This document shows, in pieces, positions 2,867 through 30,419 of a DNA stretch of 64,000 nucleotides. The notes below the pieces were generated by a model. That model saw only the letters and a list, made by a program, of their open reading frames with translations. It was not told the origin of the DNA and made no database searches. Both the position numbers and the translations under genes were made by a program. The stretch is from Candidatus Vallotiella hemipterorum. Its GTDB lineage: Bacteria > Pseudomonadota > Gammaproteobacteria > Burkholderiales > Burkholderiaceae. Numbering within the stretch: the stretch's first letter is position 1; the number at the start of each line of letters is the position of its first letter. The stretch spans positions 434,001 to 498,000 of the forward strand of contig NZ_OU343031.1 in the NCBI RefSeq assembly GCF_910593725.1, written 5' to 3'.

Positions 2867-4398
2867 GTCGCTTTCCGCTGACGCCAGAGCAAATCGAGAA
2901 TGCAACTGCCGAGGTACTCGCATGGTTGCGCACCCGCCTTCTTGCGCCTCATGCACAACTGCATGTAGATAGTCGTGCGGTATGCAACGGTGATGTATTC
3001 ATCTCGTATACACTGGACGACACAAACAGTCATCTTTATATCGTGGATGCACTACAGCGTGGCGCGGCAGCGGTGCTCGTTCAAGCTGGTCAGCAGACCC
3101 CTATTAACCTGCCAGTGCTTGAAATCCCTGAACTTAAGCAGCTTGCTGGCTATATTGCGAGTGCATGGTATGGCAAGCCAAGTTGCGGCATGCTAGTAGT
3201 TGGCATAACTGGTACTAATGGTAAGACCACAACTAATCACTGGATTGCAGGGGCGTTGAGCAGCAGTGGCATTCCTTGTGCGATTATTGGAACATTAGGA
3301 ACTGGATTATTAGGGCATCTTTCCTATACCGGGTTTACAACCCCGGATGCACCACAGGTACACCATAGTCTTTCAGTGCTGCGCTCACTAGGCGCACACG
3401 CAGTTTCTATGGAAGTTTCATCTCATGCACTACATCAAGAGCGAGTGAATGGAGTCAATTTTGACATCGCGGTTTTTACTAACCTAACACAAGACCATTT
3501 AGATTATCACAAAGATCTTGCGTCGTACGAATCCGCTAAGGTACGGCTATTCGATTGGCCGAGTTTGCGCGCAGCAGTCATTAATCGAGACGATGAGGTT
3601 GGGCGACGGCTAATAAAGCATGTGGCCACGCGAGTACGTGTAATCTCGTATGGCATATCTTTGCCCTCTAGGGACAGCGATGCCTCGCTATATGCGATAG
3701 AAATCCGTGCTATTAACACCGGAACGGCTTTTACCGTGCTATCTGATTGGGGGCGCGCTGAGGTCGAAGTGAGCGCCTTAGGAGCATTTAATGTAGCCAA
3801 TCTGCTTTCTGTCCTCGGTGTACTACTGGCTGCTGACGTACCATTCGACACGGCAGTATCGCAGCTCGCTCAGTTGGAGCCAGTTAACGGCCGGATGCAG
3901 AAATTCGGAGGGCGCATAAATATGGGTGAGCCGTTAGTAATTGTTGATTACGCGCATACGCCGGATGCATTAGAAAAAACGCTCGAGGCCCTACGACAAA
4001 TTTCTACTCAGCGAGGCGGAAAACTTATCTGCGTCTTTGGTTGTGGGGGTGACCGTGATGCAGTAAAACGACCGATAATGGGGGCAATTGCCGAACGACT
4101 TGCCGATAGCGTTATCGTAACAAGCGATAACCCGCGTAGTGAACAGCCACTTTCAATTATTAAGCAAATCGTCGACGCGATGCGTGAACCCAAACGAGCA
4201 CGAATCATCGAGTATCGCGCTAGCGCGATACTCGATGCTGTTCGTGCCGCTGCTGCCGATGATGTTGTTCTAATCGCTGGAAAAGGACATGAAACAACAC
4301 AGGAAGTAATGGGTAGAAAGTTTCCGTTTTCTGATCAAAATCACGCACGTCTTGCGCTTGAATTATGTGCTATTCAAGCTCAAACAAAATCTGAATGA
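2863..4398 (+). CDS. murE: UDP-MurNAc-L-Ala-D-Glu:meso-diaminopimelate ligase MurE
   Basis: Adds meso-diaminopimelate to the UDP-MurNAc dipeptide in the cytoplasm using ATP. The 511-aa protein is full length. The ATP-binding motif GTNGKTTT lies at residues 117-124, and the DNPR motif that marks diaminopimelate-specific MurE is present in SDNPRSEQPLS near the C-terminus, as is GKGHETTQE. The start overlaps the ftsI stop by four bases, and the stop overlaps murF by four bases. The gene contains a 32-bp perfect palindrome at 4206-4237 (residues around IEYRASAILDA). Burkholderia MurE normally has Asp where this protein has Tyr in EYRAS. Confidence 0.97.
   Translation: MSRFPLTPEQIENATAEVLAWLRTRLLAPHAQLHVDSRAVCNGDVFISYTLDDTNSHLYIVDALQRGAAAVLVQAGQQTPINLPVLEIPELKQLAGYIASAWYGKPSCGMLVVGITGTNGKTTTNHWIAGALSSSGIPCAIIGTLGTGLLGHLSYTGFTTPDAPQVHHSLSVLRSLGAHAVSMEVSSHALHQERVNGVNFDIAVFTNLTQDHLDYHKDLASYESAKVRLFDWPSLRAAVINRDDEVGRRLIKHVATRVRVISYGISLPSRDSDASLYAIEIRAINTGTAFTVLSDWGRAEVEVSALGAFNVANLLSVLGVLLAADVPFDTAVSQLAQLEPVNGRMQKFGGRINMGEPLVIVDYAHTPDALEKTLEALRQISTQRGGKLICVFGCGGDRDAVKRPIMGAIAERLADSVIVTSDNPRSEQPLSIIKQIVDAMREPKRARIIEYRASAILDAVRAAAADDVVLIAGKGHETTQEVMGRKFPFSDQNHARLALELCAIQAQTKSE
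4206..4237. repeat. 32-bp perfect palindrome inside murE
   Basis: Two 16-base arms with no spacer, centred between 4221 and 4222 (centre GCGCT|AGCGC). It lies in the reading frame and encodes residues around E-Y-R-A-S-A-I-L-D. The murE frame is intact through it. Confidence 0.95.
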
Positions 4399-7026: not shown

Positions 7027-8538
7027 ATGTTTGGCAAGAAATTTAGAGAGAGACAGCGCCCAACGACGCTTGTTCTGGGACTCGGCGAATCGGGTCTAGC
7101 AATGGCTCGATGGTGTGTACGCTATGGTTGTCGCTTACACATAGCCGATACCCGAGCAGTGCCACCAAATCTTTTTAGATTAGCAGAGTTAGGTATCAAT
7201 GCTAAATTCGTTGGTGGTGCATTTAGCCCAGCATTACTTGATGACGGTGTAGAATTAATTGGCATTAGTCCAGGTTTATCGCCGTATAGTACAGACTTAG
7301 CCGAATTAATTCGTACAGCTCGTAAGTACAGTATTGAGGTATGGGGTGAGCTCGAGTTTTTTGCGCGGTCGTTGCGGATGCTAGCAAGAAATGGCTACCA
7401 ACCTAAGGTGCTCGCAATTACCGGAACGAACGGTAAGACAATAACTACATCGCTCACTGGGCTACTATGCGAACGTGCTGGTAAAAGCGTTGCAGTAGCC
7501 GGAAATATTAGTCCAGCAATACTCAACAAGATGGCTGAGGCTATTGACTCAAAAAAAATGCCCGATGTTTGGGTACTAGAGCTCTCTAGTTTTCAACTAG
7601 AGAGCTCGTACACATTTAAGCCTGACGCAGCGATTATACTCAATATTACGCAAGATCATCTAGACTGGCACAAAGGGCTAGATGCTTACATTAAGGCAAA
7701 AAGTCGGATTTTTGGGCCTTGCACGATGCGCGTTTTGAATCGCGATGATGCTCGGGTAATGGCATTCGTACCAACTAGCGATGCTACCGTTGCATATCAG
7801 ACCTTTGGGCTTAATATGCCGCAGAATATTGGCGACTACGGTATCCAATACGACGGAGATATCGCTTGGCTCGTCGAAGCATGCGATAGCAATAATATAT
7901 CTACTGAGTATCGTACGCCCGGGCGGCGCAAAAGCGCCGCCCGGGCGTACGATATCGTGATTAATCGACTTATACCTATAGATTCTCTACGCATCCGCGG
8001 CTTACATAACGCCTCGAATGCGATGGCCGCTGTTGCTTTAGCCAAGTCGATTGGTCTGCCAGTTTCAGCGTTACTATGTGGCTTGCGCGAGTATCGCGGG
8101 GAACCGCATCGCGTTGAATGGATTAGATCCATCGCTGGAGTCGACTATCTCGATGACAGCAAAGGTACTAACGTCGGCGCGACTGTAGCGGCGTTAGAAG
8201 GCCTTGCACAACGAATTGTATTGATCGCAGGTGGTGATGGCAAAGGGCAAAATTTTACGGCGCTGGTGCCAGCAGTCTCCCGCCACTGCCGAGCCGTGAT
8301 GTTAATTGGCCGGGACGCTCCTACATTGTATGAGGCATTGGCTAATACCAGTGTCCAACTGACTCTACATTTAAGCCTGCAGTCCGCAACACGTGCTGCA
8401 GCGTCTGTTGCTCAGCCGGGGGATGCGGTGCTGCTATCTCCTGCGTGCGCGAGCTTAGACATGTTTTCCGGATATGTACAGCGCGCACAGGTATTCCGAA
8501 GAGAGATCAAGGACATCGCCGCTGAAAAAGAAGGATAA
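7027..8538 (+). CDS. murD: UDP-MurNAc-L-alanine:D-glutamate ligase MurD
   Basis: Adds D-glutamate to UDP-MurNAc-L-Ala. The 503-aa protein is full length for Burkholderia, which has a characteristic linker before the C-terminal domain. An N-terminal nucleotide-binding region (LGLGESG) is followed by GTNGKT at residues 133-138; the next residue is Ile where most homologues have Thr. ELSSFQLE and [10 protein letters not shown] are conserved. The variable linker, around codon 300, carries a 46-base hairpin (7909-7954) encoding [13 protein letters not shown] in frame. It is 23 bases after mraY and one base before ftsW. Confidence 0.96.
7909..7954. repeat. Hairpin with 21-bp perfect stem and AAAA loop inside murD
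   Basis: Arms 7909-7929 and 7934-7954 are exact reverse complements, separated by AAAA. The core (CGCCCGGGCGGCGC) is far more GC-rich than the surrounding gene. The murD frame stays open through it, in the poorly conserved interdomain linker. Confidence 0.97.
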
Positions 8539-9832: not shown

Positions 9833-10935
9833 TGGCGGGCGGTACCGGAGGACACATTTTTCCCGGACTAGTGGTTGCGCAGCGGATGCGCGAGAAGGGC
9901 TGGCGAGTCGTATGGCTCGGCAATCCAAATGGATTGGAAGCAACACTAGTGCCTAAGCACGACATTCCAGTCGAATTTATCCATTTTGGTGGTATACGTG
10001 GCAAGAGTGTTACTACAAAAATATGCTTACCACTAAACCTACTACGCGCGTGCTTAGAAAGTATGGCAGTGCTTCGCCGGGTGCAGCCTGACGTTGTGCT
10101 CGGTATGGGGGGGCATATCACGTTTCCAGCCGGTTTAATATCAGTGCTTGTACGCATTCCACTGGTACTGCATGAGCAAAATTCGGTGGCAGGCTTAGCT
10201 AACAGTTTGTTAGCTAAGCCTGCCAGCCGTGTGCTAGTTGCTTTTCCAGATGTGCTGCCCGGTGCGCACTGGGTCGGAAACCCAATCCGTCCGGAGCTAG
10301 CTCTACTAACCCCGCCCGAAGTGCGGTACGCAGCGCGCACTGGCCCGTTACGAATTCTAGTAATCGGTGGCAGCCTTGGTGCCGCAGCACTGAATAAAAT
10401 AGTACCACGTGCTTTAGCGTTATTTGATCCATCTCGGCGGCCGTACGTTGTACATCAAGCCGGCACCAAGCATATCGAAACACTGCGCATACATTACGCG
10501 GAAGCGGGACTAGCGCAAGATAACGGTATCGAACTGGTTTCGTTCATCGAAGACATGGCGCACGCCTATGCTGAGACTGATCTCGTAATTTGTCGTGCTG
10601 GCGCGATAACCGTATCAGAAATTGCCGCTGTAGGCGTAGCGGCGCTGTTCATACCATTTCCATTCGCCGTTGATGACCATCAAACTGCAAATGCAGCATT
10701 TCTAGTTATGCATCACGCAGCGAATGTAATGCAACAAAATGAATTGTCAGCAGAGAAACTCGCAGACTGGATCGGGCAGCAGACGCGTGCTTCACTTATG
10801 AAAGTCGCAGTCTGTGCGCAGGAATTAGCTAAATGCGATGCTGCCGAATCCGTTGCACAAGTGTGTGCATCGCTCGTCACACGAGACGTAGCATCTAAAT
10901 CGGATAATGCACGGTCTAGTTCGTTAGGAAAGTAA
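9808..10935 (+). CDS. murG: UDP-GlcNAc:lipid I N-acetylglucosaminyltransferase MurG
   Basis: Converts lipid I to lipid II on the inner face of the membrane. The GT-B fold glycine-rich motif [10 protein letters not shown] is at residues 11-20, HEQNSVAGL and the second-domain GGSLGA motif follow, and [13 protein letters not shown] forms the donor-binding region. Length is 375 aa, normal. ATG 9808 is preceded by GAGGTAAG and lies inside the end of ftsW. The gene carries a perfect 16-bp-stem hairpin at 10188-10224 encoding [12 protein letters not shown]. Its stop overlaps the murC start (TAATG). Confidence 0.96.
10188..10224. repeat. Hairpin with 16-bp perfect stem inside murG
   Basis: Arms 10188-10203 and 10209-10224 are exact reverse complements with a 5-base loop (AGTTT). 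The arms encode AGLAN and LLAKPA. The Burkholderia protein in this segment is similar (AGLAN..LAK.A), so a natural near-palindrome probably existed before. Confidence 0.95.
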
Positions 10936-25021: not shown

Positions 25022-26316
25022 CTCCTAATCAGCTGATCAAGCTGTATGTCGCTGAAAAGCGTAGGTCCTGCTAATCTAGACGGAGACGGATCCGGGTTAT
25101 TCTTTTTTAAGAACATTGGCTAAAGAAGATGGTGCTAAATCTAGTCATCGACCAACAGCGCGAAATAACTAGCATGACTTATAATAGCAAGTAAGTGTCA
25201 ACCTAACCATACACTTAATAGCAGCAAACCAACTGCTGGACGGCTCGCAGTAATACAACATACTTAGCCTCTACTATGATTAAAGATGTGTTTAGTACGC
25301 GATGTATATATTAATTAGCACCCCTCTAGAATAGAGGTAACGTTAGAGAATTGAGTGGAAGCTTAAGTTCGCAGATTAATAGCGCTGATTAAGAGTAGAG
25401 AAACGCGGCAGGCATTTTGCGGCGGGCTCTAGATATGCAGAGCCCGCCGCAAAATAGAAGGTCGTAAATATCATACCGGATGCCTAAATCAGTAAATAGC
25501 TCAATAGATCTATGTGCCACGCACTACACATCGACCGCGCAATGTACGTCCTAATGGCTGAATCTCTGTAATTAACGGCTGTATTGCTTCTTTAAATTTG
25601 TTCGGTTCTGGAATCTGTGGGCCGAGAGAGAATTTTTATTGAATTATGCGTATGCCGTAGTCAAGTAGTAAATGACCGGTCTATATAGAATAACTGGAGT
25701 AGTTTCCGTCTCACGGATCCTACTAATCTTAATGATGTTTAGGATCTTACCTCAGTAACGCTCGTAGGGTTATAGTTAAACCTAGGCTTGTGTAATAAGT
25801 TAATAGATACTCGTTTATCCTAGTAATTTGCAGCTAGGTATGTAGAGACGCCCGTACGGTATTCAATCCTAGTGCTATTGAATATAGATAATTGGGCAGT
25901 TCATCAAAGCCATGTAACGCAGCTGCTTTATGAAATACCGTGAATAGTAATCGACATACGGAATTTGGAAAACCTTATACTGAGGGAAATACGATGTACA
26001 ATCAGCTAACCTCCCTCTCCGATAGTAATAACGCACAGCACACCTTGCTTTGTATAAATATCCCGTTATACGAGTGCGTAGATAAATTATCCAGACGATT
26101 GATCTGATCTTCGATTTATAGCTACATCTATTATAAATACCGTCAAAAGTATGTAGAATCTTACAAACAGCAATAATCCGTACAATACTATTGACATCTC
26201 GATGGCACGAATAGCTCTATACAATTGGATATGCGTAGATGTTAAGGACTACACTTATGCGCACTGCTAGTGCAGCGTAAGCATCTTACTATTACACAGT
26301 CGTCAGTATATTAATA
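25022..26316. other. 1.3-kb gene-free stretch between coaE and the CorC-type gene
   Basis: No intact gene. In Burkholderia, type IV pilus or type II secretion genes (pilB, pilC, pilD) lie here, but I could not match their motifs on the minus strand. One unrecognised minus-strand stretch of about 40 codons (25635-25510) reads smoothly as LGPQIPEPNKFKEAIQPL, then ITEIQPLGRTLRGRCVVRGT before a stop, and may be a fragment of a lost gene. A strong GC-rich hairpin lies at 25414-25455. Confidence 0.6.
25414..25455. repeat. Hairpin with 17-bp perfect stem in spacer
   Basis: Arms 25414-25430 and 25439-25455 are exact reverse complements (ATTTTGCGGCGGGCTCT and its complement) with an 8-base loop. It is much more GC-rich than its surroundings. 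It has the shape of an intrinsic terminator with A/T flanks but follows no recognisable gene end. Confidence 0.9.
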
Positions 26317-28325: not shown

Positions 28326-28402
28326 TGGTCGGGGTGAGAGGATTTGAACCTCTGGCCTCTACGTCCCGAACGTAGCGCTCTACCAGACTAAGCTACACCC
28401 CG
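28326..28402 (-). tRNA. tRNA-Pro (anticodon CGG)
   Basis: On the minus strand 77 bases fold as a cloverleaf. The acceptor stem CGGGGTG pairs with CACCCCG, the anticodon stem CTACG/CGTAG encloses TTCGGGA, and the T-loop arm reads GAGGTTCAAATCCTC. CCA is encoded (TGG on the + strand at 28326-28328). The anticodon CGG reads CCG codons, which the neighbouring genes use. The tRNA lies about 24 bases from the ispB pseudogene. Confidence 0.96.
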
Positions 28403-28425: not shown

Positions 28426-29420
28426 TTAGGACTGGCGAGACGCTGAGTAATTACATAATCCTAGCAGTGATTCTTTAAATTTGGAATCTGGAAATGCAAA
28501 AATAACTCATGCTACTGCCTGTGCTTCTACTTTAGGGCAGCATAAAGTGTAGTAAGATTCGCCAGACTAAGTGACAGCAGTAACAATAGTTTCGAACTGG
28601 TTGATGCTGCCGCGCTGGATTTCTTCCCGAGTTAATTACGCTTGCTTATCTATCTGTTCCGTGTTTAATTAGATCAGCGGTAGTGTTGGTTTTCCTTCTT
28701 ATAAGTCATCACCAGTATTCTGACCCATTGACTCGGAGGGGCGTGTCAGGCTAGTTATCTATAACCTAGCAGGCTAGTATAAATCGTTCGGCTAAACTCG
28801 GTGGCGTCAGTTTCTATGCCGGTATTACGCCAGCAATAACAGCTCTCCAGGCTAAGCTGCTACCTAGAGCAGCTTAGCCTATCTTATAGTAGACATACTA
28901 TGCGTGTAGCGCTCTTACTGTCTACATCTGAAATGCATATTAGTAACTAAAGTACTTCGCCTTCTGTTATCACGTTGGTAGTTCCAGATGGAATCTGCAT
29001 TACTCGTAAGTTATTGCATGCGACTCTCATCTGGGTTTGAAATGCAGGTGAATAGAATATAAGAACTCTCCGACGCGTACGCTAACAGCGTTCCGAATAA
29101 TGCATTCGCGGTTTTCTACCCCGTCTTAATGACGATTCGTCGACTATATGTGTCATAGAGTAATGTTGCTGTATAGGTCAAACTCAATGACCGCAGCCAG
29201 CTCATGCCAGTAGCCGCTGCAGTCTCCTAGTGAGTTTGCAATAAGTAATGGTAGAACGGGCGTAGGCGTTTGACACTAGCACTAATAATGTATTCGGCGA
29301 TTTAATTGATGAGAGCAACGTTAGATGTAAGATAAGTACGGATTACATGATTGACTTGTTGTATATCATCGACAATCAGACTGAGCATAGCCGCAGTGGA
29401 TAGAGAGTAGTGGCTATCAA
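28426..29420 (-). pseudogene. ispB: ispB pseudogene (octaprenyl diphosphate synthase)
   Basis: Divergent from rplU, as in Burkholderia. On the minus strand, blocks of a trans-polyprenyl diphosphate synthase follow in order through stops and frameshifts. They are: IVDDIQQVNHVIRTYL then TSNVALIN near 29380; KRLRP near 29270; HELAAVIEF and YTATLLYD near 29200; VDESSLRRGRK near 29140; AVIAGVIPA near 28835; NTGDDL.EGKPTLPLI near 28700; and FPDSKFKESLLGLCNYSASR at the end, with a stop at 28426. The enzyme makes the ubiquinone side chain. The hairpin at 28849-28880 replaces the segment before AVIAG. Confidence 0.92.
28849..28880. repeat. Hairpin with 13-bp perfect stem inside the ispB pseudogene
   Basis: Arms 28849-28861 and 28868-28880 are exact complements (AGGCTAAGCTGCT), with a 6-base loop. 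It occupies the place of the conserved K-T-A-K-L-F-E-A-A-A-Q-L-G block. That block's codons can naturally form an imperfect inverted repeat, so the perfect hairpin probably arose from it. Confidence 0.9.
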
Positions 29421-29718: not shown

Positions 29719-30030
29719 ATGTACGCGGTCGTAAAAACTGGTGGCAAGCAATATAAAGTTGCTACCGGAGAAAAATTAAAAATAGAACAGATACCAGCCG
29801 AAGTCGGCACTGAGATTACTCTAGACCAAGTGCTTGCAGTGGGTAAAGGCGAATCTATGAGGTTCGGTATTCCCTTGGTTAATGGGGCTTCTGTTAAAGC
29901 TACTATAGTAGCGCATGGACGGCATGCAAAAGTTATCATTTTTAAAATGCGTCGTAGAAAGCATTATCAGAAGCATAGCGGTCACCGTCAGAATTATACC
30001 GAATTACATATCGACGAAATTAAATCGTAA
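29719..30030 (+). CDS. rplU: 50S ribosomal protein bL21
   Basis: The 103-aa protein matches bL21 from end to end: [20 protein letters not shown], an [15 protein letters not shown] block and the C-terminal basic motif [20 protein letters not shown] that binds 23S rRNA. It is the first gene of the rplU-rpmA pair, read from the promoter at 29562-29590, with GCGAGG as a weak ribosome-binding site. It is divergent from the ispB pseudogene, a standard Burkholderia arrangement. Confidence 0.97.
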
Positions 30031-30359: not shown

Positions 30360-30419
30360 ATACCCCACTATTAATAAAAGGCCTCGAAATTTCGAGGCCT
30401 TTTATTAATAGTGGGGTAT
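30360..30419 (+). terminator. 60-bp perfect palindrome, probable rpmA terminator
   Basis: Bases 30360-30389 and 30390-30419 are exact reverse complements with no spacer; the centre is CTCGAAATTTCGAG. The inner part, AAAAGGCCTCGAAA with its complement followed by TTTTATT, has the form of a bidirectional intrinsic terminator. The outer arms (ATACCCCACTATTAAT) extend it well beyond what a terminator needs. Confidence 0.85.

Follow-up and report, generated by a model that had tools for sequence, protein, structure and literature searches.

The window, a stretch of 64,000 nucleotides, comes from the genome of Ca. Vallotia tarda (G000), an adelgid symbiont. The genome report by Szabo et al. 2021 (PMC8692619) gives 1,123,864 for the chromosome and 72,431 for the plasmid and describes six pseudogenes in the ubiquinone pathway; the species name V. 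tarda for this genome is found in PMC8857208. The locus considered here holds a dead ispB gene, a perfect hairpin inside it and two live neighbours (Table 1). Two stop-containing PF00348 fragments on the minus strand (28606-28749 and 28941-29147) flank the hairpin on both sides, and the relic continues beyond the tabulated span in the direction of rplU. Its alignment with intact ispB of relatives showed 64-66% identity across the region, that is, about 35% divergence. The minus-strand frame across the hairpin reads IR*AKLL*VAA*PGELLLL, its intact counterpart in the relative G007 reads YKTAKLFEAAAQLGAVIAG, and the hairpin occupies the codons matching KTAKLFEAAAQLG of the intact relatives' ispB. 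This comparison of frames shows that the initial annotation had named the right codon block (K-T-A-K-L-F-E-A-A-A-Q-L-G); it had also rightly placed the hairpin within a dead ispB.

Table 1. Features at the ispB relic (positions in the window)
Feature	Position	Strand	Evidence or remark
tRNA-Pro	28326-28402	-	live gene; the hairpin sits between tRNA-Pro and rplU
Dead ispB (polyprenyl diphosphate synthase)	28606-29147	-	span of two PF00348 fragments with stops; alignment with intact ispB of four relatives
Left hairpin arm	28849-28861	+	AGGCTAAGCTGCT; repeat search
Hairpin loop, 6 nt, ACCTAG	28862-28867	.	sequence and repeat search
Right hairpin arm	28868-28880	+	AGCAGCTTAGCCT; repeat search
rplU, intact, divergent from ispB	29719-30030	+	anchor for ortholog comparison

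The hairpin itself is real. A repeat search of the window returned the exact 13-bp stem and 6-base loop that had been described, with 13 of 13 positions paired (100% complementary). When the segment 28840-28890 was folded as single-stranded DNA, it reached -14.7 kcal/mol (z -4.40), a value equalled by none of 200 shuffles. The hairpin was present as a single copy in the whole genome of G000.

Among its genus mates, G002, G004 and G005 are reduced, and G001, G003, G006 and G007 have genomes of 3.3-3.8 Mb with intact ispB. We take these four large relatives to be Mycetohabitans, which fits statements in the papers that we cite. The initial annotation had proposed that the ispB codons nearly formed an inverted repeat, which was perfected by template switching after the death of the gene. 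The intact relatives bear out the starting point, since their repeat is partial in the register of the hairpin, the best cases (G006 and G007) having 5 Watson-Crick and 3 G-T oppositions at 12 aligned positions and the others fewer. None of the four large relatives had a perfect repeat in this register of its intact ispB. Thus, of the two ancestral states named as contrary to the proposal, a repeat that was already perfect and the lack of any partial repeat, neither was encountered.

The proposal further implied that the differences from intact ispB would be confined to one arm, copied from the other. This was not observed. Compared with the aligned relatives, the left arm has 3 private bases and the right arm 2, the flank rate being 0.21. 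Both arms have changed in the alignment, neither of them above the flanks, and the directions are mixed, each arm retaining an old base at one or another site at which its partner changed. The changes toward A-T yield several of the new pairs, G-T oppositions having become A-T, in a relic where C to T was found at 114 of 352 sites and G to A at 132 of 384 in comparison with intact ispB. For the inner C-G pair, an A of the right arm had to become G, and at the outer end one base was gained per arm, placing GG opposite CC. The partial ancestor and the perfect descendant are in keeping with quasipalindrome correction; a one-way switch is not demonstrated at this hairpin, because both arms changed at the rate of the flanks. 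With about 35% divergence between the relic and intact ispB and no close relative for comparison, the order of the steps is not recoverable; nor is there an intermediate relic that would show one switch.

We considered the possibility that point mutation alone made the hairpin. Decay was simulated in 4000 relics of 1201 bases each, with indels and with substitutions drawn from the observed table. The simulated relics contained 68, 14, 3 and 0 hairpins with stems of at least 10, 11, 12 and 13 bp, respectively, and 2, 0, 0 and 0 at the site of the hairpin. In a simulation restricted to the site, in which seven starting sequences were given 12000 runs each, a 13-bp stem arose in 1 of 84000 runs; the single success started from G002, whose relic already holds an 11-bp hairpin there, and the other six starts gave 0/12000 each. 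The ancestral sequence in the simulation was ispB from the large relatives; the quasipalindrome of the Vallotia ancestor may have been better. The absence of a 13-bp stem from 4000 neutral relics makes a process beyond independent point mutation likely. The hairpin of the G002 relic lies in the same block but is a different one, with 11 perfect pairs (TATTAAACACT / AGTGTTTAATA, L024:711-733), which suggests that this block of ispB is prone to hairpin formation.

The window contains 13 hairpins with stems of at least 11 bp and loops of up to 20 nt; alignment with one or more relatives was possible for 12 of them. To judge from these alignments, some of the nearby coding hairpins appear to have been rewritten. 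The clearest case of change in one arm is the hairpin at 7909-7954, in an open frame, with private bases at 8/21 positions of the left arm and 0/21 of the right; the outer part of the right arm matches G002. In the open-frame hairpin at 10187-10225, the left arm is near that of G002 and the outer right arm is now the complement of the left arm. At 4206-4237, again in an open frame, a 16-bp palindrome is exactly the same in G000 and G004, the other relatives are without it, and the outer right arm has changed. One arm also seems to have been rewritten in a perfect hairpin at 7579-7607, likewise in an open frame. At 25414-25455 there is a perfect 17-bp hairpin with a loop of 8 nt, to which only one relative could be aligned, and poorly.

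A terminator-like perfect 30-bp palindrome (30360-30419) lies between rpmA and obg. Its counterparts in G002, G004 and G005 are perfect over 28, 14 and 22 bp, with differing outer sequence, and those in G003 and G007 are imperfect (79-80%). We rejected this terminator as proof of one-sided rewriting: the ancestral-arm test was not significant for G000 and G002 and was weak for G005, so that no donor arm is claimed for it.

To extend the comparison, we counted private bases in hairpins with stems of at least 12 bp from four genomes; 37 of the 160 had at least two orthologs, the other 123 lacking orthologs in the samples. The arms of these 37 hairpins carried 241 private bases, compared with a mean of 183.5 for flank placements of the same shape (controls as high in 9 of 2000). 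The asymmetry between arms that is expected of one-way copying came to 65 in the same hairpins, against a control mean of 61.1 (681 of 2000 controls as high). Being no higher than in the controls, between-arm asymmetry was rejected as a general signature.

Hairpins were then surveyed in samples of 400-464 kb, counting perfect stems of at least 13 bp with loops of up to 12 nt, with second-order Markov simulations as the null. G000 had 37 such stems, G002 15, G004 40, G005 28 and G003 10 per sample, whereas simulated stems amounted to 0 to 0.25 per sample and mirror repeats to 0; for the 464-kb sample of G000, none appeared in 4 simulations. Controls were also rich in stems: G016, whose genome is reduced but has an intact mutS, had 24, and a set of 80 rplU loci from Burkholderiales had 31. 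Within open reading frames, densities were alike, 19.8/Mb in the four reduced genomes and 20.7/Mb in the controls (p = 1.0); the idea that coding hairpins, at about 20/Mb in both, are peculiar to the symbionts was therefore discarded. Non-coding hairpins without a T-run numbered 25 in G000, 26 in G004, 17 in G005 and 11 in G002, all reduced and mutS-less (130/Mb), against 4 in G003, 6 in G016 and 3 in the 80 loci (50/Mb; binomial p 0.0003), where non-coding means outside frames of at least 120 aa and thus includes short genes, the reduced genomes contain more relic DNA, and two of the three controls differ in base composition (0.59-0.61 G+C). Only one duplicate was found among all these hairpins. 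Stems of at least 18 bp were counted 39 times in 1.66 Mb of the reduced genomes and 6 times in 1.28 Mb of controls. The excess of G000 over G016 alone was marginal (p 0.047). Hairpins were about 6 times as dense in non-coding as in coding DNA, in agreement with the earlier description of the relic as DNA free of protein constraint.

In Vallotia, mutL, mutS, recG and recQ are described as pseudogenes (PMC8692619). In our searches mutS scored above the cut-off in 4 of 8 genus members, namely the four large ones; the four reduced genomes (G000, G002, G004 and G005) had broken fragments only, that of G000 being at C1:775199-775396. Both xseA and recJ are intact in 8/8. SbcD gave no TIGR00619 match in 8/8 members, the large genomes included; missing from large and reduced genomes alike, it cannot explain a difference between them and was ruled out as a special cause of the hairpins. 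On account of the short genes counted as non-coding, the larger share of relic DNA and the composition gap, the link with mismatch repair is a correlation within one clade.

Because point mutation is improbable and other hairpins abound in the genome, we favour template switching as the source of the ispB hairpin, with quasipalindrome correction, probably in more than one step, as its likely origin in kind. On this reading the codons for KTAKLFEAAAQLG were a natural quasipalindrome, though a weak one. Once ispB was dead in Ca. Vallotia tarda, decay from C to T and from G to A converted several G-T oppositions into A-T pairs, as the alignment shows; the leftover mismatches, together with the additional G-C pair for which both arms gained a base, would then have been fixed during replication by template switching, either intrastrand or interstrand. 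This fixing, an enzymatic step that we infer, probably took two or more rounds, and the finished hairpin would be without function. With a divergence high enough to accommodate several switches, membership in this class is claimed as likely only. Chance formation from a favourable quasipalindrome, through small indels and point mutations that arose independently with an AT bias, would account for the several steps that are the commonest decay changes, turning G-T into A-T, and for arms no more diverged than their flanks. Yet this explanation is rather unlikely, as the 13-bp stem was missing from every simulated relic and nearly every site run, and the 37 hairpins of the G000 sample, set against none simulated, are far too many for chance.

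Selection for the hairpin, for instance as a transcription terminator or as a structure that protects RNA between tRNA-Pro and rplU, would explain the stable fold and its place between two live genes. However, the hairpin lies inside the relic, away from a gene end, has no counterpart in the three related reduced genomes and does not figure among the terminator-like sites of the window; an intrinsic terminator would be a GC-rich stem with a T-run after it, and no T-run follows on either strand. We consider selection very improbable. Still less credible is an origin from a palindromic element that was mobile or repeated (REP-like, or the end of an insertion sequence), which would fit the perfect arms and the short loop: such elements have several genome copies, this hairpin has one, and both arms align with ispB codons except for short gaps.

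Quasipalindrome correction by template switching is itself a known process, described in E. coli at the thyA hotspot and with lacZ QP reporters (PMC7202029). The ispB hairpin resembles the cases reported there in that an imperfect inverted repeat with short arms and a loop became perfect. It differs in that those events were observed directly and in a single step, whereas the relic hairpin would be the outcome of an old chain of events without visible one-way copying. Template-switch mutations are reported as a source of new hairpins (Monttinen and Loytynoja 2022, PMC8794818) and of homogenised repeat arms in the genes of yeast (PMC8604942); as in these reports, we deduced homogenisation of arms by sequence comparison, coding genes included (here 7909 and 10187). 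Those studies could use reconstructed ancestral nodes, but the present relics are at least 35% diverged and no node is near. The general excess over shuffled sequence agrees with the excess of short perfect inverted repeats reported for genomes (van Noort 2003, via PMC6649704; PMC13155455). Unlike those reports, we separate the excess by coding, terminator-like and remaining non-coding DNA and compare repair-poor symbionts with relatives. A literature search, covering few subscription papers, found no publication that addresses template switching in insect-symbiont relic DNA.

The ispB relic thus offers a new example of this process, good yet unproven, and the side result on repair-poor symbionts is the wider and testable matter. 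The decaying DNA of the symbiont seems to have recorded such copying slips many times. We suggest, tentatively and with considerable doubt, that template-switch hairpins build up in the decaying DNA of Vallotia, which belongs to a genus without an SbcD match, because mismatch repair has been lost; the relic genes of such symbionts would then serve as a natural mutation-accumulation record of template switching. Where selection purges such changes, the frequency of template switching is difficult to measure; the dead genes of repair-poor symbionts may preserve a neutral record of it.
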